This document shows, piece by piece, positions 5,610 to 59,125 of a DNA stretch of 64,000 nucleotides (position 1 is the first letter of the stretch; each line of letters begins with the position of its first letter). The DNA lies in assembly GCA_913056125.1 (NCBI GenBank), contig CAJXNC010000014.1, forward strand, positions 1 through 64,000, written 5' to 3'. A model generated the notes under the pieces. That model ran no database searches and had not been told where the DNA came from. It saw only the letters and a program-made list of their open reading frames with translations. Source of the DNA: an uncultured Altererythrobacter sp. Its GTDB lineage: Bacteria > Pseudomonadota > Alphaproteobacteria > Sphingomonadales > Sphingomonadaceae. The position numbers and the translations under genes were made by a program.

Positions 5610-6647
5610 CTATTCGCCCATATCGAGATGTTCGGCCATGAAGGGCAGAACGACGCTGCTGAAACGCGGGCCGATCTTGTCGGTATGCGTGCCTTCATAG
5701 GTCTCGAAAATGTGTTCGATACCGAACTTCTCCAGCTCTTCATGGATCAGCGTATCGTCGCGAATGAGGCCATCCATCGTACCGACATCCGAACCGATCG
5801 CATCGAAGCTTTCGAGTTCGGTGATGTGACTGGAAACCATGGCGAGCGGCGAATTGTTGGCCCAGCGTGCGATCACGTACTGGTCGACCGAACCATCTTC
5901 CGCGAGAGGCCAGTCGACGAAGAATGGCGGCTTGTTCGGGTTGGGCGACCAGGCCACCGCCGATGCGAGGCCTGCGAGAACGCCAAAATTGCCGCTATCC
6001 ACCGTCTCCTGCGTGGCCGAGGCCATGGCAGCAGCGCTTTCGGGTGTCTCCATGCGCGGGCTGACGCAGCAGGCGCTCTGCGCCCAGATCGAATCGAACA
6101 CTTCGGGGTGCTCCATCGCCACCACCCAGGTGCCGTAGCCGCCCATGGAATGGCCGGCGAGACCGCGGCCTTCGCGCGTCGGGATGGTGCGGTAATTGGC
6201 GTCGATGAAATTGACGAGGTCGGTTGCCACGAAATCGCGGAAATTGCCGGTGGTGACCGAATTCGAATACATCGAACCGCCCATCTTCGTCAGGCTATCG
6301 GGCACCACGACGATGAATTCGCGGCCTTCTGCGGCATTTGCCGCCACGGCTGCGGGGACATCCATGAAATTGTAGAAATTGCGCCCGGTGATAAAGAAGC
6401 CGTGCAGGTAATAGACCACCGGGAAGTGACGTTCCGGGTCGGTCGCATAGCTCGGCGGCAGCACCACCATCACTTCGCGCTCCACCGCATTGCCTTCCAG
6501 ATTGCCCTCCAGCGTCGCGCCATGGACCATCGGCGCTTCGACGGTGATCCCGGCCGGGATTTCGGGGGCGGGGGCGGTGATCTGTGCGGCGGCGGGGGTG
6601 GCGATGAGCGCCAGCAGGGCGGCGCCGGCAAGGGCAATGGACTTCAT
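5610..6647 (-). CDS. Secreted alpha/beta-hydrolase esterase (esterase D/PHB-depolymerase-like), copy 1
   Basis: 345 residues from the ATG at 6647, chosen because it starts a clear signal peptide (charged MK, hydrophobic stretch, ATPAAAQ cleavage region) and is preceded by a GGAGAG-like ribosome site; the longer open frame lacks these. The mature part is an esterase D type alpha/beta hydrolase: YYLHG oxyanion region, nucleophile elbow GHSMGG, and the late His in YEGTHTDK. It probably hydrolyses an ester in the periplasm or outside the cell. It is a tandem paralogue of the next gene (6733-7740): the two share the order of all motifs, the conserved SACC after the elbow and the terminal LPF-AEHL. 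Located inside the leucine cluster. Confidence 0.85.
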   Translation of the reverse strand: MKSIALAGAALLALIATPAAAQITAPAPEIPAGITVEAPMVHGATLEGNLEGNAVEREVMVVLPPSYATDPERHFPVVYYLHGFFITGRNFYNFMDVPAAVAANAAEGREFIVVVPDSLTKMGGSMYSNSVTTGNFRDFVATDLVNFIDANYRTIPTREGRGLAGHSMGGYGTWVVAMEHPEVFDSIWAQSACCVSPRMETPESAAAMASATQETVDSGNFGVLAGLASAVAWSPNPNKPPFFVDWPLAEDGSVDQYVIARWANNSPLAMVSSHITELESFDAIGSDVGTMDGLIRDDTLIHEELEKFGIEHIFETYEGTHTDKIGPRFSSVVLPFMAEHLDMGE

Positions 6648-6700
6648 GGGGGATCTCTCTCCGTTAGGAACTCGCTTCTGCGTCATGGGCTGACCCAGAA

Positions 6701-6720
6701 AATTGTTTCGAGCAACAATT
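6701..6720. repeat. Perfect 7-bp inverted repeat between the tandem esterase genes
   Basis: AATTGTT and AACAATT flank a 6-base spacer. On the minus strand the hairpin lies just after the stop of the upstream esterase (6733) and is followed by TTTTCT, so it may act as a weak terminator. It also lies 54 bases upstream of the ATG of the second esterase and could be an operator. The A/T-rich arms stand out from the surroundings. Confidence 0.45.
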
Positions 6721-6732
6721 ATTTCATAGCTA

Positions 6733-7740
6733 TCAATCTCCGTCGAGGTGCTCGGCGAAGAATGGCAGGACATGGGTAGGTATGCGCCCGGCGATCTTGT
6801 CGCCATGTCCGCCTTCATAGACCTCGTAAGTGTGCGTGATACCGAAACGGTCAAGCTCGGCATGCAGCGCGTCATTGTCGGTCTTGAGGCCGTCTTCATT
6901 GCCGACATCCAGGGCAATCGCATCCATGGCACGCAGCGAAGGCAGATATTGCGGCAGCATGGGTATGATCGAATTGGCAGCGATGCGCGCCATCACTTCG
7001 GGATCGATCGTGCCGTCATCGAGCAGCCCGGTCTCGAACTTGTGCGGCGCATCCGGATCGGGCGACCATGCCGAGAGGAAGGGCGCCGCACCGAGCGTGC
7101 CGAATGAAGCCTCGGCCACTTGCTCGTCGGTCAGTGCATCTGCGGCCTGTGCATCCTCGATAGAATAGGGACGCACGTTGAAGCAGCAGGCACTCATCGC
7201 ATAGACGCTGGAGAAGACGTCGGGGAATTTCAGCCCCAGCCGCATCGCGCCGTAACCGCCCATGGAATGGCCCGCGAGCCCGCGCGATTCCCGTCGCGGC
7301 AGTGTGCGATACATGGCATCGACCTGCGCCACGAGGTCGCGCGCGATATAGGTCTCGAAATCGCCCGTGGTCGGCGAATTGGAATAGAAGCTGCCGAGCA
7401 TGCGCGAATATCCATCGGGCATGACGAGAATGAACTCATTGCCTTCGGCCGCAGCAGCGTCGAGCGCTTGCTCGAAATGGACGAGGTCCTGGTACATCTG
7501 CGTGGTCGCACCATAGCCGTGCAGGAAATAGACCACCGGATAACGGCGCTCCGGGTGCTCGTCATAGCCTGGCGGCGTGAACACCATTGCGGTACGGACA
7601 GCGGGGCTGCCTTCCCAGTTTCCTTCGAGCGCCTCGCTATGGAATGTCAGTTCGTTGATCCGCGCGTTTTCCTGCGCGGCAGCCGGCAGCGCCAGCAAGG
7701 CCATGGCGGCGGCGAGCGCGCCAGTCAGGCATTTCAGCAT
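6733..7740 (-). CDS. Secreted alpha/beta-hydrolase esterase, copy 2
   Basis: 335 residues with an N-terminal signal peptide (MLKCLTGALAAAMALLALPAAAQ) and the same esterase D-like fold as its downstream neighbour: YFLHGYG, elbow GHSMGGYG, SACC, late His in YEGGHGDK. Substrate unknown; sequence alone cannot distinguish carboxylesterase, feruloyl esterase or S-formylglutathione hydrolase-like activity, though secretion argues against the last. It begins 14 bases after the ivd stop, so it is probably read with ivd. The pair looks like an old tandem duplication, diverged well beyond nucleotide identity. Confidence 0.85.
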   Translation of the reverse strand: MLKCLTGALAAAMALLALPAAAQENARINELTFHSEALEGNWEGSPAVRTAMVFTPPGYDEHPERRYPVVYFLHGYGATTQMYQDLVHFEQALDAAAAEGNEFILVMPDGYSRMLGSFYSNSPTTGDFETYIARDLVAQVDAMYRTLPRRESRGLAGHSMGGYGAMRLGLKFPDVFSSVYAMSACCFNVRPYSIEDAQAADALTDEQVAEASFGTLGAAPFLSAWSPDPDAPHKFETGLLDDGTIDPEVMARIAANSIIPMLPQYLPSLRAMDAIALDVGNEDGLKTDNDALHAELDRFGITHTYEVYEGGHGDKIAGRIPTHVLPFFAEHLDGD

Positions 7741-18330: not shown

Positions 18331-20667
18331 ATGGCGTCGAGCGCCCGTAGCAAAGGCAACACTGTCGACTGGAAAGCGGCGTTTCGCCGTTCGCTCGCGC
18401 GCATATTGCAGCGTTCGGGCGCCATCATCCTTTTCGCACTCATGCTGTTCCTCGCGCTTGCGCTGGTCAGCCATGCGCAAAGTGACCCTTCGCTTTCGAC
18501 TGCTGCGGGCGAGGTTGTCCGAAACTGGATGGGCATTGCCGGAGCCTACGCCTCGGACCTCGCACTGACCGGCTTCGGCGTCGTTTCGATCCTCCTGCTG
18601 CCGCTCTTCTATGCTTTCGGGCGCCGTCTGTGGCTCGATTCCTCGGACGAGGATGAAGAGGAGGTCCGCAGCAAGTGGTGGCACACCGTGCTGCTCCTGC
18701 TGCTGGCCATGGCGCTGCTTTCGACTGTGCTCGCATTGGTCAGCGATCCGGCGAATTCCTCCTATCCCGCGGGCTATGGCGGGCTAGCCGGTCTGCTCGG
18801 CGAAGGCGGATTGCAGGCTCTCGCCGGGCGATTGCCCGAAGCCGCGCAATTCTGGACCGTTCTGGCCGGCGGGTTGCTGAGCTTGTTTGGCGGCGCCTTC
18901 CTCGCAGGCAAGGTCTTCGCACTGGACTGGGCAGGCTTGCTGACCCTGCCCGAATGGGCCCGCCGCGCGCCCAGCCTGCCGGGTAAGCCGAGCAATCCCT
19001 TCAAGCCGACAGCGGAGCGCCGCAAGACCGAGAAGAAGAAATCCGAGCCGGTCACGCTCCCCCAATCCGATCGCAAGCCGCCGGAAATCTCCGATCCTTC
19101 CGCCCCGCCGCGCCCCGCCAAGCCGAGCAAGGGCAAGCAGAAGGACCTGTTCGCAGAATTCGACCTGCCAAGCCTCGACCTGCTCGAGGACCGGCCGGAA
19201 AACACCGCGCACAAGCTCGACAAGCTGGCACTGGAGAGGAATGCCCGCTTGCTCGAAAACGTGCTCGACGATTTCAACGTGAAGGGCGAGATCACCGCCG
19301 TACGAACCGGGCCGGTGGTAACCATGTACGAGCTGGAACCTGCGCCGGGCATCAAGGCCAGCCGCGTGGTCGGCCTCGCCGAAGACATTGCCCGCAACAT
19401 GTCTGCCATCTCCGCGCGCGTCGCGCCGATCCCGGGCAAGACGGTGATGGGTATCGAGCTGCCCAATGCCGACCGCCAGACGGTCAGTTTCAAGGAGCTT
19501 GCCGCGTCGGAAGCCTTCGTCGATGCCAAGGGCAATCTCCCGATCATCCTTGGCAAGGATATTGCCGGCGAACCGATCGTCGCAGACCTCGCCGCCATGC
19601 CGCATCTGCTGGTCGCGGGCACGACCGGCTCGGGCAAGTCGGTCGGCCTCAACTGCATCCTGCTCTCGCTGCTCTACCGCTTCAGCCCGGCCGAATGCCG
19701 CATGATCCTGATCGATCCCAAGGTGCTCGAGCTCAAGAGCTATGACGATATCCCGCACCTCCTCGCGCCGGTGGTGACCGAGCCGCACAAATCGATCCGC
19801 GCCTTGAAATGGGCGGTCGAGGAGATGGAGCGGCGCTATCGCATGATGAGCGATATCGGCGCGCGCAACCTCACCGGCTTCAACGACCGGGTGAAAGCCG
19901 CCGCCGCCAAGGGCAAGCCGCTCGGCCGCCGCGTGCAGACCGGCTTCGACCCCGAGACGGGCGAGGAACTGTTCGAGGAAAAGCAGCTCGATTACGAGGT
20001 CATGCCGCAGATCGTTGTGATCGTGGACGAGCTGGCCGACCTCATGGTCACTGTCGGCAAGGAAATCGAGGTGCTGATCCAGCGCCTGGCGCAGAAAAGC
20101 CGAGCCGCGGGCATCCACCTGATCATGGCGACCCAGCGCCCCTCGGTCGATGTCATCACCGGCGTGATCAAGGCGAACCTGCCCACCCGCATCGCCTTCA
20201 ACGTCACCAGCCGCATCGATTCCCGCACCATCCTTGGCGAACAAGGCGCCGAGCAGCTGCTGGGCAAGGGTGACATGCTCTACAAGCCTACCAGCGGCGC
20301 GCTGAAGCGCGTACACGGCCCCTTCGTCTCGGACGAGGAGGTGGAGAAAGTCGCGGTCCATTGGCGCGGCCAGGGCGAGCCCGATTACATCGACTCGGTC
20401 ACAGAGGAGCCCGAGGATGGCGGCTTTTCTTTCGAGGACGAGTTCACCGCTTCGGACAATCCGGAGGAGCGGCGCTATCGCCAGGCCTGCCAGATCGTGT
20501 GGGAGAACCAGAAAGCCTCGGGCTCATGGCTCCAGCGACAGCTTGGCGTGGGATACAACACCGCCGCCAAGCTGATCGAGCGGATGGAGGAGGACGGGCT
20601 GGTCGGTCCTGCCAACCATGTTGGCCGCCGCGAAATCTACCGCGACCGGGACGGCAACCCCTTGTGA
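18331..20667 (+). CDS. ftsK: DNA translocase FtsK
   Basis: 778 residues. About four membrane segments in the first 200 residues anchor it at the septum, then a short Pro/Lys-rich linker (about 215-275), shorter than in E. coli. Motor domain: Walker A TTGSGKS near residue 432 and Walker B VIVDELADLM near 564. The gamma winged-helix domain (about 713-770) that reads KOPS sequences ends the protein. FtsK pumps chromosome dimers to dif and activates XerCD during division. The final codons (from 20626) are duplicated at 21996, and the stop TGA overlaps the GTG start of the immunity gene downstream. A GANTC-rich promoter lies just upstream. Confidence 0.97.
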   Translation: MASSARSKGNTVDWKAAFRRSLARILQRSGAIILFALMLFLALALVSHAQSDPSLSTAAGEVVRNWMGIAGAYASDLALTGFGVVSILLLPLFYAFGRRLWLDSSDEDEEEVRSKWWHTVLLLLLAMALLSTVLALVSDPANSSYPAGYGGLAGLLGEGGLQALAGRLPEAAQFWTVLAGGLLSLFGGAFLAGKVFALDWAGLLTLPEWARRAPSLPGKPSNPFKPTAERRKTEKKKSEPVTLPQSDRKPPEISDPSAPPRPAKPSKGKQKDLFAEFDLPSLDLLEDRPENTAHKLDKLALERNARLLENVLDDFNVKGEITAVRTGPVVTMYELEPAPGIKASRVVGLAEDIARNMSAISARVAPIPGKTVMGIELPNADRQTVSFKELAASEAFVDAKGNLPIILGKDIAGEPIVADLAAMPHLLVAGTTGSGKSVGLNCILLSLLYRFSPAECRMILIDPKVLELKSYDDIPHLLAPVVTEPHKSIRALKWAVEEMERRYRMMSDIGARNLTGFNDRVKAAAAKGKPLGRRVQTGFDPETGEELFEEKQLDYEVMPQIVVIVDELADLMVTVGKEIEVLIQRLAQKSRAAGIHLIMATQRPSVDVITGVIKANLPTRIAFNVTSRIDSRTILGEQGAEQLLGKGDMLYKPTSGALKRVHGPFVSDEEVEKVAVHWRGQGEPDYIDSVTEEPEDGGFSFEDEFTASDNPEERRYRQACQIVWENQKASGSWLQRQLGVGYNTAAKLIERMEEDGLVGPANHVGRREIYRDRDGNPL
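20626..20651 (+). repeat. Direct repeat copy 1 (within ftsK 3' end)
   Basis: 26 bases identical to 21996-22021, encoding RREIYRDR in the ftsK frame. It is the left boundary of the putative island. Confidence 0.85.
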
Positions 20668-20960
20668 ACTCGCTCGATTGGCTGATGCAGTGGTACGCTT
20701 CCCAGTGCAACGGCGTGTGGGAGCATGGTCATGGGGTCGACATCACAACGATCGACAATCCGGGCTGGCAATTGACCATTCACACCATCGGCACGCACTG
20801 GGAAGGCGTGACGATGGATGAGATCAAGCACGACTATGATCACGAAACCGAGTGGTTCACCTGCAAGGCCAATGGCAATGCATTCACCGGCTTCGGCGGT
20901 CCGGGCCAGCTTGGCGCCATGATCGAGGTTTTTCGCGGATGGATCGAAGAGAGTAGCTGA
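20664..20960 (+). CDS. Immunity protein 53 (Imm53) family protein
   Basis: 98 residues starting at GTG 20664, whose last two bases are the first two of the ftsK stop (GTGA overlap), so translation is probably coupled to ftsK. The pattern matches Imm53: an early WL--WY---C----WEH run, the invariant DNPGW, EWFTC in the middle, GFGGPGQL, and a final F--W. Imm53 proteins are found as immunity partners in polymorphic toxin systems. No toxin gene is adjacent, so this is an orphan. It lies inside the segment bounded by the ftsK-end repeats and is lower in GC than ftsK. The assignment is by remembered family pattern, not by search. Confidence 0.75.
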   Translation: MNSLDWLMQWYASQCNGVWEHGHGVDITTIDNPGWQLTIHTIGTHWEGVTMDEIKHDYDHETEWFTCKANGNAFTGFGGPGQLGAMIEVFRGWIEESS

Positions 20961-20996
20961 GATGACCACACTGGAGCGGCACGCCCTGCCTCCAGT

Positions 20997-21920
20997 CTAT
21001 TCCTCCGGGATTCGAAAGAAGCGCTTGGCGTTGCCACTCAGAATCGCCGTGCGGTCTTCTTCGGTCAGCCATTCGATACGCTCCATGCGTTCCAGAATCT
21101 GGCTTACCGGCACATTGTCACTGCCGAACATGATCCGGTCGGCAAATCCGGCATCGAACAACCGCCGCATGGCCGCCTCATATTGCTCGAACGGCATCAC
21201 GCCATTGGTGATGGACAGGTCGAGATAGACCCCGGGATAGTCGCGCAGCAGCGCCAAGGTCTCATCCCAGAACGGACCGCCAACCGCCGGTCCTGCGCCG
21301 ACATGCTGGATCCACACGCGCATGCCCGGATGGCGATCCAGCACCGGTCGTAGCAGCGCCGGGTTGCCCATGGCGGGATCGAAATTGGGGCAGCAGCCCT
21401 CGAAGCGGTTCCCCTCGTTCGGGCCGCGCTGGGTGTGGAAACCGACCGGAATGTCATAGCGCTCGGCGAGCGCAAAATAGGGTTCCAGCCTCGGGTTGGA
21501 AGGCGAGAGGCCGAGATATTGCGGGGCGACCTCCTGAAGCACGCCGATGCGGCCGGAAGCGACATTCTCTTCGAGCCAGTCGAAATCCGCCCAGCCCTCG
21601 CTCTCGGGAAAGCAAATGAATGTGGGCTCCACGGAATTGCGGGGGCAAGCGGCCAGCACAATGCCCACGATGATGGAAGCGCCCTGCCAGGCATCGACAT
21701 CCTCTTTCGTGGAGACGCCGATCACAGCCCCTGTCACCCCGTCAGCCTCCATCGCCTGCAACTGGGCGGCGCGAACCTCCTCAAAGTCCTCGAACGAATA
21801 TCGTCCGTGCATATGGACATCGATGATTTCCCGCTCGGCCTGGGCGTAAACGAGACCCGGTGCTGCCAAGAGTCCAAGACAGACGGCAAATGACGCAAAG
21901 ATCCTGAATTGTCCGCTCAT
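20997..21920 (-). CDS. Secreted amidohydrolase family protein
   Basis: 307 residues with a signal peptide (MSGQFRIFASFAVCLGLLAAP through YAQA). Amidohydrolase-2 type TIM barrel: DVHMH gives the HxH metal site near residue 38, further His in GFHTQRGP and WIQHVGAG, and the conserved Asp in FGSDN near the end. Such enzymes hydrolyse or decarboxylate ring acids and esters; the substrate is unknown. It points against ftsK and the Imm53 gene, with 36 bases between stops, and lies in the segment bounded by ftsK-end repeats. It is visibly lower in GC than the SulP gene beyond. Confidence 0.85.
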   Translation of the reverse strand: MSGQFRIFASFAVCLGLLAAPGLVYAQAEREIIDVHMHGRYSFEDFEEVRAAQLQAMEADGVTGAVIGVSTKEDVDAWQGASIIVGIVLAACPRNSVEPTFICFPESEGWADFDWLEENVASGRIGVLQEVAPQYLGLSPSNPRLEPYFALAERYDIPVGFHTQRGPNEGNRFEGCCPNFDPAMGNPALLRPVLDRHPGMRVWIQHVGAGPAVGGPFWDETLALLRDYPGVYLDLSITNGVMPFEQYEAAMRRLFDAGFADRIMFGSDNVPVSQILERMERIEWLTEEDRTAILSGNAKRFFRIPEE

Positions 21921-21995
21921 TTGGCCCCCAAGTTCGATGCAATCAGCCTCGCGACCACTATTCGCGATTTCGTGGCAGGAGGCAATGTGGCCGGT

Positions 21996-22037
21996 CGCCG
22001 CGAAATCTACCGCGACCGGGATGGTAATCCGCTATAG
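21996..22037 (+). pseudogene. Remnant of a second ftsK 3' end
   Basis: Encodes RREIYRDRDGNPL and a TAG stop, identical in protein to the last 13 residues of FtsK at 20626-20667. The first 26 bases are identical; the remainder differs only at synonymous positions (GAT/GAC, GGT/GGC, AAT/AAC, CCG/CCC, CTA/TTG). Upstream of it (NVAG against NHVG) the resemblance fades within a few codons. It has no start of its own and is read as the displaced original end of ftsK or an imported one. Confidence 0.7.
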
Positions 22038-22082: not shown

Positions 22083-23312
22083 ATGAAACCAAAACTGCTG
22101 ACCACGCTGGCGACCTACGATCGCAGGCAATTCTCCGGCGATGCCATTGCCGGGGCCACGGTCGCGCTTGTCGCGCTGCCGCTGAGCATTGCCATCGCCA
22201 TCGCCTCGGGCGCGCCGCCCGCAGCCGGGCTGGTGACTGCCGTCGTTGGCGGGTTCCTCATTTCCGCGCTGGGCGGCAGCCGGGTGCAGATCGGCGGGCC
22301 GACCGGCGCCTTCATCGTGGTGGTCTATTCGGTGATCGCCAATCACGGTTTCGAGGGCATGCTGCTGGCGACGATCATGGCCGGCATATTGCTGGTAATC
22401 GGCTGCTTGCTGCGCGCCGGAAGGCTGATCCGGCTGATCCCCGAAGCGGTGATCGAAGGCTTCACCGTGGGCATCGCGGTGGTGATCGCTACCAGCCAGC
22501 TCAAGGACCTTGCCGGGCTGCAAACGGGCAGTCTCCCCGCCGAATTCCTGCCCAAGATCGAAGGGCTGTGGGCCGCGCGCGCTTCGCTAGACTGGCCTTC
22601 GCTGCTGCTTGGGCTGGGAACGATCGCCGGGATCGTGCTGCTGCGAAAGCTGGCGCCAAAATTCCGCGCCCGCGCCGTTATCGTGCTCGTCACCAGCGCG
22701 CTGGCGGCGTTCCTCATCCCGAGCGCCGAAACGGTCGCCTCGCGCTTCGGCGAATTGCCGCATGGCCTGCCCATCCCTTCGCTGCCACCCATTTCGATCG
22801 ACCTTATCTTGGAATTGCTGCCCTCGGCGCTGACCATTGCCGTGCTGGCGGGAATCGAATCCTTGCTGTCCGCGCTGGTTGCCGACCGCATGATAGGAGG
22901 CGCGCATCGCACCAGTGCGGAATTGCTGGCGCAAGGCGCGGCCAATATTGCCTCGCCCCTGTTCGGCGGGCTTCCGGCAACCGGCGCAATCGCGCGCACC
23001 GCCACCAATGTCGATGCCGGGGGGCGTACTCCCGTCGCTGGCATCATCCACGCGCTGGTCGTTCTGCTGGCCATGATCGCCCTCGCCCCGCTGGCGGGCG
23101 AACTGGCGCTGCCCGCGCTGGCCGGCCTGCTCGTCATCACCGCCTGGAACATGTCCGAGCCCGAGCGCTGGTGCGAGCGCATGGAGCTGCCGCGCATGCA
23201 GCTGGCGCTGCTTGTCCTCACCGCCGCACTGACCGTGCTTGTCGACCTGACCGTGGCGATCGGCGTGGGCACGGTAATCGGGCTGGCGCTCAAATGGCAC
23301 GAACGCAGGTGA
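22083..23312 (+). CDS. SulP family anion transporter lacking a STAS domain
   Basis: 409 residues, almost all in about 10-12 hydrophobic segments. SulP marks: an entry near DAIAGATVALVALPLSIA, GGSRVQIGGPTGAF near residue 75, and PATGAIARTATN near residue 300. SulP proteins move sulfate, bicarbonate or dicarboxylates. The protein stops right after the last membrane segment, so the cytoplasmic STAS domain found in most SulP members (550-600 residues) is absent; shorter members without STAS are known. It starts 46 bases after the ftsK remnant, so its promoter probably lies in or upstream of the remnant region. Confidence 0.88.
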   Translation: MKPKLLTTLATYDRRQFSGDAIAGATVALVALPLSIAIAIASGAPPAAGLVTAVVGGFLISALGGSRVQIGGPTGAFIVVVYSVIANHGFEGMLLATIMAGILLVIGCLLRAGRLIRLIPEAVIEGFTVGIAVVIATSQLKDLAGLQTGSLPAEFLPKIEGLWAARASLDWPSLLLGLGTIAGIVLLRKLAPKFRARAVIVLVTSALAAFLIPSAETVASRFGELPHGLPIPSLPPISIDLILELLPSALTIAVLAGIESLLSALVADRMIGGAHRTSAELLAQGAANIASPLFGGLPATGAIARTATNVDAGGRTPVAGIIHALVVLLAMIALAPLAGELALPALAGLLVITAWNMSEPERWCERMELPRMQLALLVLTAALTVLVDLTVAIGVGTVIGLALKWHERR

Positions 23313-23404: not shown

Positions 23405-24034
23405 ATGGCCAGCAAATACGAACAGCAGGTCTATGACTGCATGAACCCGACGCTCGACCTGCTCGAGCGCACGGAGAACCCGCTGCACCGCGCGATCCTG
23501 AAGAACTACTGCCGCCACGTGCACCTCGAAGGCGCGGCCATGTTCGAGGAGATCACCGCGCCCGACATGATGGCCGACGATCCGGTCTATCACATCACCT
23601 GGGGAGACAGCCCGTTCCAGGTCAAGGGCCGCCAGGGCGTGTTCGATTTCTACTCCTCGATCGGCGATATCGTGCTGTGGAACTCGGGCGACCTCGTCGC
23701 TGTGGCCGACTGGGGCATTGCCGACGAAATGTGGTTCCACCAGATGTCGACCGGCGCCGAATTGAAGAAGCTCGGCCACAAGGTGGAAAAGGATGAAGGG
23801 CTCTACCTCGTCCATTCACTGCAGGCCTTCATCTGGCCCTATGACGAAAATGCCCTTCTGAAGGGCGAGCACCTCTATGAGGACAAGTCGACGCTGAAGA
23901 TCGAGGAGATCGACCCGGCGGATTACATGACGCCGCAGCGCGTGCGCGAGATTCACAAGGAATGCCTCGCCGACCTTGAGCAACGTTGGGGCGCGAATTA
24001 CTGGGTCTATAATCGCGAAACAGCGAACGCCTGA
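23405..24034 (+). CDS. Unrecognised soluble protein, 209 aa
   Basis: I do not recognise the family with certainty. 209 residues, no signal peptide or membrane segment, strong ribosome site (AAGGAGAGGAG) before the ATG. It is rich in Trp, Tyr and acidic residues. The alternation of an N-terminal helix (YDCMNPTLDLLERTEN), a FYSSIGDIV segment and a beta-rich middle with DLVAVADWGIADEMWF resembles NTF2/SnoaL-type small cone folds, where such proteins bind or isomerise hydrophobic ligands; this is a shape impression only. The GDSL hydrolase gene starts 14 bases downstream, so the two are probably co-transcribed. Confidence 0.8.
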   Translation: MASKYEQQVYDCMNPTLDLLERTENPLHRAILKNYCRHVHLEGAAMFEEITAPDMMADDPVYHITWGDSPFQVKGRQGVFDFYSSIGDIVLWNSGDLVAVADWGIADEMWFHQMSTGAELKKLGHKVEKDEGLYLVHSLQAFIWPYDENALLKGEHLYEDKSTLKIEEIDPADYMTPQRVREIHKECLADLEQRWGANYWVYNRETANA

Positions 24035-55893: not shown

Positions 55894-57690
55894 TCAGGCG
55901 GCGGGCTGGTCGTCGAATTGCAGCGCTGCCAGACGGGCGTAAAGGCCGCCCTTTCCGGTCAGGCTGGCATGATCGCCCTGCTCGACGATCCGGCCGTCTT
56001 CCATCACCACGATGCGGTCCGCCGCACGTACCGTGGCCAGACGGTGGGCGATGACCAGCGTCGTGCGATTTTCCATCAAATGGTCGAGCGCCTGCTGTAC
56101 CAGCCGCTCGCTCTCGGCATCGAGCGCACTGGTCGCCTCGTCGAGCAGCAGGATCGGCGCATCGCGCAGCAGCGCACGGGCAATCGCCACGCGCTGACGC
56201 TGGCCGCCGGACAGGCGTGCCCCGCCCTCGCCAAGGAAAGTATCGAGGCCTTCGGGCAGGTCGCGCAGGAACTGTTCGGCATTGGCGGCGCGGGCCGCTT
56301 CCCAGATCGCCTCCTCGCTCGCTCCCCAGGCGCCGTAGCGGAGGTTGTCGCGCGCGCTGGCGGCAAACAATATGCCCTCCTGCGGCACCAGCGCCATGCG
56401 ACGACGGATATCTGCGGGATCGGCCTGGGTCAGCGGGACACCATCCAGCTTGATGGTGCCGCTGGCAGGATCGTAGAAGCGCTCGGCCAGCTGGAATATG
56501 GTCGATTTGCCAGCTCCCGACGGGCCGACAATGGCCACCGTCTCGCCAGGCTCCACTGTCAGGTTGAAATCGGCAATCGCCATCTCGTTGGGCCGCGTGG
56601 GATAGGAAAAGGTGACACCCTGGAAAGCAAGGCTGCCGCGCGGCGGTTCAGGCAGCGCCTGCGGACGCGCGGGCGGCGCGATCTCCGGTTCCACTTCGAG
56701 CAATTCGTGCAAGCGGCTGGCGGCGCCTGCACCGCGCAGCAAGTCACCATAGACCTCGGTCAGGGCGCCGAAACCGCCCGCCGTGATCATCCCGCCGGCC
56801 ACGAAGGAGGTAATCGTGCCGCCGGTTATCGTCCCTGTGCTGACCATGATGGCGCCGCGCCACAGCAGCAGGGTGATCGCGCCGAAGATCAGCGTCATGA
56901 CCACTGCGGTCATGACCGCGCGAATCAGGATCCGCCTCTTGGCGACGGTAAAAGTCTGCTCCACAGCTTCGTGGAACCGGCCAGCCTCGCGCTTTTCCTG
57001 GTTGAAGCCTTGCACGATCTTCATCGCGGACAGGATTTCCGTGGTGATCCCGCCGACATCGGCAACGCGATCCTGGCTGGTCCGGCTGACATTGCGCAAC
57101 CGCCGGCCGAATACGGCGATCGGGATGATCACAACCGGAATACCGGCCAGCAACCACACGGTAAGCTGCGGGGCGAGCCAGAAGAGGTAGCCGGTTCCCA
57201 GCACCGCCATGATTGCATTGCGCAGCGCGACCGAAACCGTGGTGCCCACGACTGTTTCGATAATCGCCGTGTCCGATGTCATCCGGCTGGAGATTTCCTT
57301 GGGGCTGTTCTCCTCGAAAAAGGACGGGGAGAGCCGCAGCAAATTGGCATAAACCTTGTCGCGGATATCGGCGACGACCCGCTCGCCCAGCCAGCTGACG
57401 AAATAGAACCGCACGGCCGTGCCGAAGCCCAGCACACCCACCAGCAGGAGCAGGTAGCGGAACCAGCGATCGATATCCCCGTCTCCGCCGAAGCCGCGAT
57501 CGACCACCAGCTTGAGGCCGTAAGGGATGGCCAATGACATCACCGAAGCGGTGACCAGCAGGGCAATGGCCGCCAGCGCGATCTGCAGCGGATATTTTCT
57601 CGCCTCGCGATAGATCATCGCCAGCGGACGAAGGTTCTTGGCCTTCTGCGGCTCGCTCGATGTGCTCAAAGTTTCCTGGGGGGCAGCCAT
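55894..57690 (-). CDS. ABC exporter, fused membrane and ATPase domains
   Basis: 598 residues from ATG 57690. Six membrane segments (about 40-320), then the ATPase with Walker A GPSGAGKS, signature LSGGQRQRVA, Walker B LLLDEATSALD and a switch His. It is a half-transporter of the ABCB/MsbA-like class that works as a homodimer, exporting lipid or drug-like molecules. Divergent from the PHA depolymerase gene. Confidence 0.93.
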   Translation of the reverse strand: MAAPQETLSTSSEPQKAKNLRPLAMIYREARKYPLQIALAAIALLVTASVMSLAIPYGLKLVVDRGFGGDGDIDRWFRYLLLLVGVLGFGTAVRFYFVSWLGERVVADIRDKVYANLLRLSPSFFEENSPKEISSRMTSDTAIIETVVGTTVSVALRNAIMAVLGTGYLFWLAPQLTVWLLAGIPVVIIPIAVFGRRLRNVSRTSQDRVADVGGITTEILSAMKIVQGFNQEKREAGRFHEAVEQTFTVAKRRILIRAVMTAVVMTLIFGAITLLLWRGAIMVSTGTITGGTITSFVAGGMITAGGFGALTEVYGDLLRGAGAASRLHELLEVEPEIAPPARPQALPEPPRGSLAFQGVTFSYPTRPNEMAIADFNLTVEPGETVAIVGPSGAGKSTIFQLAERFYDPASGTIKLDGVPLTQADPADIRRRMALVPQEGILFAASARDNLRYGAWGASEEAIWEAARAANAEQFLRDLPEGLDTFLGEGGARLSGGQRQRVAIARALLRDAPILLLDEATSALDAESERLVQQALDHLMENRTTLVIAHRLATVRAADRIVVMEDGRIVEQGDHASLTGKGGLYARLAALQFDDQPAA

Positions 57691-57901: not shown

Positions 57902-59125
57902 ATGCTCTATTCCGCCTATGAAATGCAGCGCTCGTTCATGACCAGCGCCAGCAATTGGGCGGCCGTGCAGGCGCAGTTGTGGAGCAACCCCTCCCTTCCC
58001 ATCGGCTATTTCGGCATGGGCCCGGCGATCGCCAGCGCGTTCAAGGTCTTTGCCCATATCTACGAGGAGCGCGGCAAGCCGCTCTTCAATATCGACGATG
58101 TCGAAGTGGACGGAAAGACGTACCCCGTTGCCGAAGACGTGGTGCTGGAAAAGCCCTTCGGCGCGCTGCGTCACTTCCGCCGCGAAGGCCTGCCCGATGA
58201 TGCACCCAAGCTGCTGATCGTCGCTCCCATGAGCGGGCACTATGCCACGCTCCTGCGCGGCACGGTGGCACGCATGGTCGAGAACCAGGAGGTGTGGATC
58301 ACCGACTGGGCCGACGCCAAGCATGTCCCGCTCTCGGTCGGCGAGTTCGATCTCGACGACTACATCGATTACCTGATCGAGTTCCTCCGCTTCATCGGTG
58401 AGGACACGCATATGCTGGCCGTGTGCCAGCCTTCGGTCCCGGCCTTCGCTGCATCAGCCGTGATGGGCGCGGACAAGGATCCCTGCCGCCCGTCCTCGCT
58501 GACCATGATGGGCGGCCCGATCGATACGCGCGCCAGCCCGACCAGCGTCAACGATGTGGCGATGGAAAAGCCGCTCAGCTGGTTCGAGAATAATGTCATC
58601 GCCACCGTGCCGCTCAACTATCCCGGCGCGGGCCGCAAGGTCTATCCCGGCTTCCTGCAGCTGGCGGGCTTCATCTCGATGAACCTCGAAAGCCACATGA
58701 TGAGCCATTACGAGATGTTCAAGCATCTCACCGTGGGCGATCATGAAAGCGCCGATGCGACCAAGAAGTTTTACGACGAATATCTCTCGGTCTGCGACAT
58801 GACGGCGGAATTCTACCTGCAGACGATCCACCACGTCTTCCAGGAGCATTCGCTGCCCAAGGGCGAGTTCGTCCATCGCGGCAAGGCGATCGATCCCGAT
58901 GCGATCCGCGATACCGCGCTGTTGGCGATCGAAGGCGAGCGGGACGATATTTCGGGCATAGGCCAGACCAAGGCCGCGCTCGACCTTGCCGAACACCTGC
59001 CCGATGCAAAGAAGAAATACCTGCTGGCCGAGGAAGTCGGCCATTACGGCATCTTCAATGGTTCGAAATGGCGCGGGCGGATCGCCCCGGTCGTGGAGGA
59101 CTGGTTGCGGGCCAATTCGCGCTAG
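57902..59125 (+). CDS. phaZ: Intracellular polyhydroxyalkanoate depolymerase
   Basis: 407 residues, no signal peptide. MLYSAYEMQRSFMTSASNWA entry, the nucleophile Cys in LAVCQPSVPA (lipase-box equivalent), Asp in GERDDISG and His in VGHYGIFNG, matching the intracellular PhaZ family. It mobilises stored polyhydroxybutyrate from granules. A PhaR-like palindrome lies upstream. It converges with the ligase gene, 16 bases apart. Confidence 0.93.
   Translation: MLYSAYEMQRSFMTSASNWAAVQAQLWSNPSLPIGYFGMGPAIASAFKVFAHIYEERGKPLFNIDDVEVDGKTYPVAEDVVLEKPFGALRHFRREGLPDDAPKLLIVAPMSGHYATLLRGTVARMVENQEVWITDWADAKHVPLSVGEFDLDDYIDYLIEFLRFIGEDTHMLAVCQPSVPAFAASAVMGADKDPCRPSSLTMMGGPIDTRASPTSVNDVAMEKPLSWFENNVIATVPLNYPGAGRKVYPGFLQLAGFISMNLESHMMSHYEMFKHLTVGDHESADATKKFYDEYLSVCDMTAEFYLQTIHHVFQEHSLPKGEFVHRGKAIDPDAIRDTALLAIEGERDDISGIGQTKAALDLAEHLPDAKKKYLLAEEVGHYGIFNGSKWRGRIAPVVEDWLRANSR

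Follow-up and report, generated by a model that had tools for sequence, protein, structure and literature searches.

Why does the end of ftsK occur twice, with two other genes between the copies? This question is raised by a stretch of 64,000 nucleotides (here called the window) from an uncultured Altererythrobacter sp. of the Sphingomonadaceae (contig CAJXNC010000014.1), where the 3' end of ftsK recurs downstream of an Imm53 immunity-protein gene and an Amidohydro_2 family gene. A first-pass annotation, made from the letters alone, had proposed that DNA entered at the 3' end of ftsK and restored the gene, and had considered an integrase-type element as the agent. Our comparison with relatives upholds the first proposal and leads us to prefer a different agent.

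Two ftsK tails in the window

The ftsK gene, the target (18331..20667, forward strand; FtsK_4TM, alpha, FtsK_SpoIIIE and gamma domains), ends in a tail, copy A (20623..20667, forward strand), that is matched by a second tail, copy B (21993..22037, same strand), at 36 of 45 positions, in register and without gaps, and both copies extend in frame to stop codons. The match includes a 38-nt ungapped alignment at 89% identity and a 26-bp exact core starting at 20626 and 21996, an offset of 1370 bases, exactly as the first-pass annotation had reported. As a nucleotide match within its own genome, the repeat has an E value of 1.3e-7. Each copy encodes GRREIYRDRDGNPL* (14 residues and the stop), and all nine differences between them are synonymous, with TGA/TAG counted as such; the earlier description of a second in-frame copy with its own stop and only silent changes thus holds over the full 45 bp. 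Synonymous outcomes would be expected for 25% of random single changes in this tail, or 36% of transitions. Since the nine differences are all synonymous, copies A and B both probably evolved as functioning ftsK ends, and their identity lies just under the range (37-43) among the tails of seven close ftsK genes. Upstream of copy B the similarity to ftsK ends abruptly, as judged by eye, and the 30 bases following each of the two copies look unrelated, as they also do in the two further cases described below.

The junction in relatives

Had the cargo been inserted, some relatives should have ftsK directly beside the SulP gene with one tail, or different cargo in the same structure; both were found, the latter in two other genera (see below). 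In the window, 45 bp separate copy B from the SulP permease gene (22083..23312, forward strand; PF00916). In G005, whose genome completeness is given as 69%, SulP likewise lies 45 bp behind ftsK, and the single tail has no second copy in the 10 kb scanned; the two SulP genes are 65% identical as proteins and 70% as DNA. G005 thus represents the empty site for the window, and the shared spacing marks copy B as the displaced native tail, with SulP as its native right-hand neighbour. Copy A is linked to the Imm53 gene (20664..20960, forward strand), whose GTG start overlaps the TGA of ftsK, because in G032 the start of Imm53 overlaps the end of ftsK in exactly the same way. There, the order is ftsK, Imm53, a small open reading frame (ORF), a tannase-type esterase gene and a GDSL lipase gene, and no second ftsK tail was found within the 10 kb scanned. 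The combination of a G005-type layout at copy B and a G032-type overlap at copy A indicates, from sequence comparison, that the insertion displaced the native ftsK tail and supplied a replacement, copy A being the putative incoming one. The empty site in G005 and the Imm53 junction in G032 therefore both support the entry of DNA at the 3' end of ftsK with restoration of the gene. Other relatives have other genes at this position: in G008 and G009 a homologue of the window gene at 23405 stands directly behind ftsK, and in G034 and G007 an ORF of ~530 amino acids resembles, by eye, the G032 esterase.

Both cargo genes belong to recognizable families. Imm53 scores 102 bits against a curated PF15580 cut-off of 25 (E 1.5e-29), and the Amidohydro_2 gene (20997..21920, reverse strand) scores 93.9 bits against the PF04909 cut-off of 26.4 (E 1.9e-26). 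The first-pass annotation held both to be foreign. The compositional part of that claim is weak, because the difference in GC content is mild (57.0% for Imm53, 61.1% for the amidohydrolase gene and 63.0% for the window), whereas distribution makes a stronger case. Imm53 was found in two of 99 relatives, one of them the window's own genome, and stands directly behind ftsK both times; amidohydrolase homologues beyond 1e-30 occur in six of 61 genomes (own included), and the closest in the 60 other genomes is 49% identical. Across 298 family genomes, six had PF15580 matches (the window's own counts among them, and G032 does not appear in the listed matches); in three of the other five (G306, G258 and G343) ftsK lies on a different contig or ~157-160 kb distant.

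Imm53 is again lodged behind core genes at two further loci. In G196 (locus L288, 1453-1794) an orphan Imm53 gene overlaps the end of a SufB/D-family gene (PF01458), and in G343 (locus L289, 1447-1797; mechanical start) another lies ~100 bp behind a SufB/D-family gene (PF01458). No gene-tail repeat occurs within these 3.3-kb loci.

Recurrence in two further genera

The cleanest case of an ftsK-tail insertion is that in G151, from another genus. Here a 62-bp ftsK tail is repeated at 61 of 62 positions, with the copies 801 bp apart, and the insert holds one ORF of 238 amino acids whose ATG lies two bases past the ftsK stop. This cargo has a GC content of 47.8%, against 62-63% on both sides. Empty sites are provided by two species of the same genus (G226 and G282), in which the tail directly precedes a DUF389 gene, as copy B does in G151; among 15 loci in which a DUF389 homologue was located, nine have its start at most 113 bp from the ftsK stop. 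The 238-amino-acid protein had no match above the cut-off in Pfam and none in PADLOC, NCBIfam, PHROGs, plasmids or IMG/VR, and its one PDB hit (E 0.86) is meaningless. It contains an RxxxxxH-like stretch that we take to recall HEPN RNases.

In G065, a 49-bp tail copy (43 of 49 identical) lies beyond a gene for an S26 signal peptidase (PF10502, E 3.4e-25; 61% GC against 67-70% around it) and is followed by lolA. Of 35 loci in which lolA was located (two of them G065 itself), 17 have it 78-240 bp downstream of ftsK; the empty-site comparison for G065 has only other genera with the ftsK-lolA order and no same-genus sister genome. In the window, G151 and G065 alike, direct repeats of the end of the target gene flank an insert of 0.74-1.33 kb that starts at, or at most 10 bp from, the ftsK stop. 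Of the three displaced tails, two begin at the GRRE codon (by eye) and the third 17 bp further upstream. With a signal peptidase and an uncharacterised protein as the other cargos, the suggestion of the first-pass annotation that the site is a hotspot of immunity-gene turnover is unsupported.

How widespread is the footprint?

The tail footprint is rare, and it is concentrated on ftsK but not exclusive to it. At each locus, we scanned the DNA downstream of ftsK for a repeat of that locus's tail, in 165 of 168 loci (three were too short) and in further sets of 19 and 40; the sets overlap partly (a batch of 28 loci includes some genomes already sampled, and L205 repeats G065). The positives were G065 (L107/L205) and G151 (L203), the latter fetched because its second tail was already known. 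Shuffled controls, run for the 165-locus scan and an earlier 10-kb scan only, scored up to 36 in the former, and weak matches in L065, L047, L219 and L254 (29-35) fall inside that range. Sixteen loci in which the gap behind ftsK is wider yielded no convincing second tail, and those insertions thus lack the tail mark.

We also searched 397 whole family genomes with a profile of the tail, and matches were listed for the 156 genomes with at least two (picked by eye). At E <0.005, stranded tails stood out only in G000, the window genome (3.6e-4), and G151 (6.4e-9). The profile misses G065, whose tail differs, so this census is a lower bound. The remaining second matches, judged from coordinates and frames only, had the look of paralogues, weak hits, contig edges or, in G046, a frame break; that in G377 (E 3.5e-4) lies inside a 668-codon frame and was taken for a different protein. 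The ftsK tail also matched 48 plasmid records; in those of the 20 listed that are annotated, the match is an FtsK gene.

Finally, a control self-comparison of 199 sequences (2.75 Mb, comprising ftsK neighbourhoods and the window) sought gene tails repeated 0.25-15 kb downstream. It returned nine candidates, and four of these enclose unrelated DNA: the window, G151, G065 and G479. In G479 (locus L268, 4181-4288 and 5817-5924), a 108-bp tail of an L,D-transpeptidase gene is repeated at 94% identity around one alpha/beta-hydrolase gene. In L166 (~6080-7259, reverse complement), the tail of a HAD-like gene and apparently part of the next gene are copied 1138 bp downstream, which by eye looks like a tandem-duplication remnant. 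In four further candidates (one in L043, two in L241 and one at window 57077), the second copy falls within a long frame or lacks a matching stop; these were presumed to be paralogues. The same comparison gave 21 gene-head matches. As the sample is ftsK-centred, and the window and G151 were not blindly drawn, we claim no rate.

The repeat at 57077-57258 and 58197-58378 of the window (reverse-complement coordinates; 6062-6205 and 7179-7322, or nearby, on the forward strand) spans 185 bp at the end of a gene, is imperfect (69%) and probably reflects paralogous neighbours.

Origin of the insertions

We favour, at a probability of roughly one half, the RecA-type integration of a small DNA that carried a short fragment from the 3' end of a related ftsK. 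The incoming molecule would have borne the donor tail followed by accessory genes. By the simplest route, it would be a circularised fragment that entered through a single RecA-type crossover in the resident ftsK tail; alternatively, a homologous crossover in ftsK could have been combined with an end-joined right side. Either route would give ftsK the donor tail (copy A) with the cargo directly after it, and would leave the resident tail (copy B) stranded ahead of SulP. We infer both this route and the possibility that the cargo is read together with ftsK. What was observed is that the two tails are each tied to their own right-hand neighbour, that an empty site exists, that the structure recurs in two further genera, and that the main ORFs of the three ftsK inserts (Imm53 and Amidohydro_2 in the window, the S26 peptidase in G065 and the Pfam-less 238-residue ORF in G151) include no recombinase, smaller overlapping ORFs being left unsearched. 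The first-pass annotation had already described the window segment as free of recombinases, which is borne out for its main ORFs. A partial duplication of a gene end without a recombinase, as homology-anchored integration predicts, is seen in the window, G151, G065 and G479, and the L,D-transpeptidase footprint in G479 argues for a route that does not depend on the target gene. Taken with the absence of recombinases from the main ORFs of the inserts and the lack of larger elements bounded by an ftsK tail, it favours homology-anchored integration over a dedicated integrase.

Several points weigh against this explanation. The tail copies are short (45, 49 and 62 bp), and lengths of 45-62 bp are near the low limit for RecA; longer tail repeats may have been lost by recombination. 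The displaced tails share their first codon in two of three cases, which is unexpected from random breaks and would be explained by an attachment site. Three cases at ftsK, against one elsewhere in the 2.75 Mb, hint at a target preference, in an ftsK-centred sample with two of the three not drawn blind. No donor molecule was found, nor donor sequence across the cargo end. There is no clear breakpoint in ftsK, as identities to six close relatives are similar along the gene and hence uninformative (the rows for G012 and G052, at chance level and evidently on the wrong strand, were left out). Furthermore, one-sided homologous integration is rare and usually deletes recipient DNA, according to excerpts of PMC5361080 and PMC3240628, and no such loss is apparent at these ftsK inserts.

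An unlikely alternative is that a site-specific recombinase encoded elsewhere uses the ftsK 3' end for attachment and moves small promoterless, recombinase-less cassettes in trans. The uniformly short tails (45-62 bp) in three genera, the first cargo ORF beginning no more than 10 bp from the ftsK stop and the first codon shared by two of the three displaced tails would all fit, but the footprint at the L,D-transpeptidase gene, with its 108-bp tail, would not. In the window genome PF00589 matches four times: two of the matches fall in 302-codon frames, the size of Xer, and one lies next to a tRNA-Leu gene (serine recombinases were not searched for); the window tail occurs in no phage record, and two exact degenerate patterns of the ftsK tail matched no contig in IMG/VR. 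The fuller form of this idea, in which the Sphingomonadaceae ftsK 3' end would receive minimal cassettes that bring their own ftsK tail, move in trans and are expressed via the essential gene, integron-like without an integron, is more doubtful still. Marginally less probable than the general trans-acting model is that these are decayed islands, elements that were once larger, encoded an integrase acting at the ftsK 3' end and have since shrunk to one or two genes. Integrases do commonly target gene 3' ends. For the site-specific tyrosine-integrase integrative and conjugative elements (ICEs) of streptococci, repeat lengths of 12-54 bp are given in parts of PMC4701971. However, neither the 397 family genomes (for tails other than the G065 type, and among the 156 genomes listed) nor the stretches of up to ~18 kb scanned behind ftsK yielded a larger element with an ftsK tail at its boundary, and the G151 insert looks recent (61/62) but already has a single gene. 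Together with the recombinase-free main ORFs and the footprint at the L,D-transpeptidase gene, this leaves the integrase-type agent of the first-pass annotation unsupported. We regard it as highly improbable that the repeat arose by chance, by tandem duplication of the ftsK end or through an assembly error: tandem-duplication remnants do exist (L166) and the contig bearing the window belongs to an assembly of 19 contigs, but the bases past the copies look unrelated in all three ftsK cases, the exact core and its E value speak against chance, and G151 is an independent case with empty sister sites.

Relation to known systems

Homology-anchored integration, if correct, would mean that single accessory genes may lodge behind an essential gene in inserts that encode neither transposase nor integrase, with immediate expression possible. 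If the footprint proves widely recurrent, stranded gene tails would be a simple genome-wide marker for recent recombinase-free gene gain, and scans for them would reveal gains missed by integrase-based element finders.

Events like the ftsK-tail insertions are known, but this form of them has drawn little attention. An E. coli experiment described in excerpts of PMC3240628 yielded partial gene-end duplications of 109-950 bp, ascribed to a single crossover of a trimmed circular molecule, and the related homology-facilitated illegitimate recombination (HFIR) involves 3-10 bp of microhomology. As in those cases, foreign DNA here is anchored by homology, part of the target gene end is duplicated and no recombinase gene is needed; the laboratory duplications are longer, however, and HFIR proper usually deletes ~1 kb of recipient DNA, whereas no such deletion is apparent at the ftsK inserts. 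Elements integrated at the 3' ends of rplL and guaA in streptococci, as covered in parts of PMC4701971, similarly leave the gene whole and are bracketed by short direct repeats of its end, but here no recombinase is seen, the inserts are 0.74-1.33 kb and the ftsK 3' end is targeted. The same source reports that some Streptococcus ICEs integrate in ftsK itself; they share the target gene, but they use its 5' end, are conjugative and encode a tyrosine integrase. Thus, the earlier statement that no established element uses ftsK fails for the 5' end and stands for the 3' end, for which the open-licence literature searched held no report as an integration target. A further parallel is found in Vibrio type VI secretion system clusters, where, according to sections of PMC5361080, old 3' ends are shifted and immunity genes retained. 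There, too, the arrival of a module moves the former 3' end downstream and immunity genes are kept; however, an effector gene is displaced in Vibrio, whereas here it is ftsK, and an immunity gene is present in one of the three inserts.

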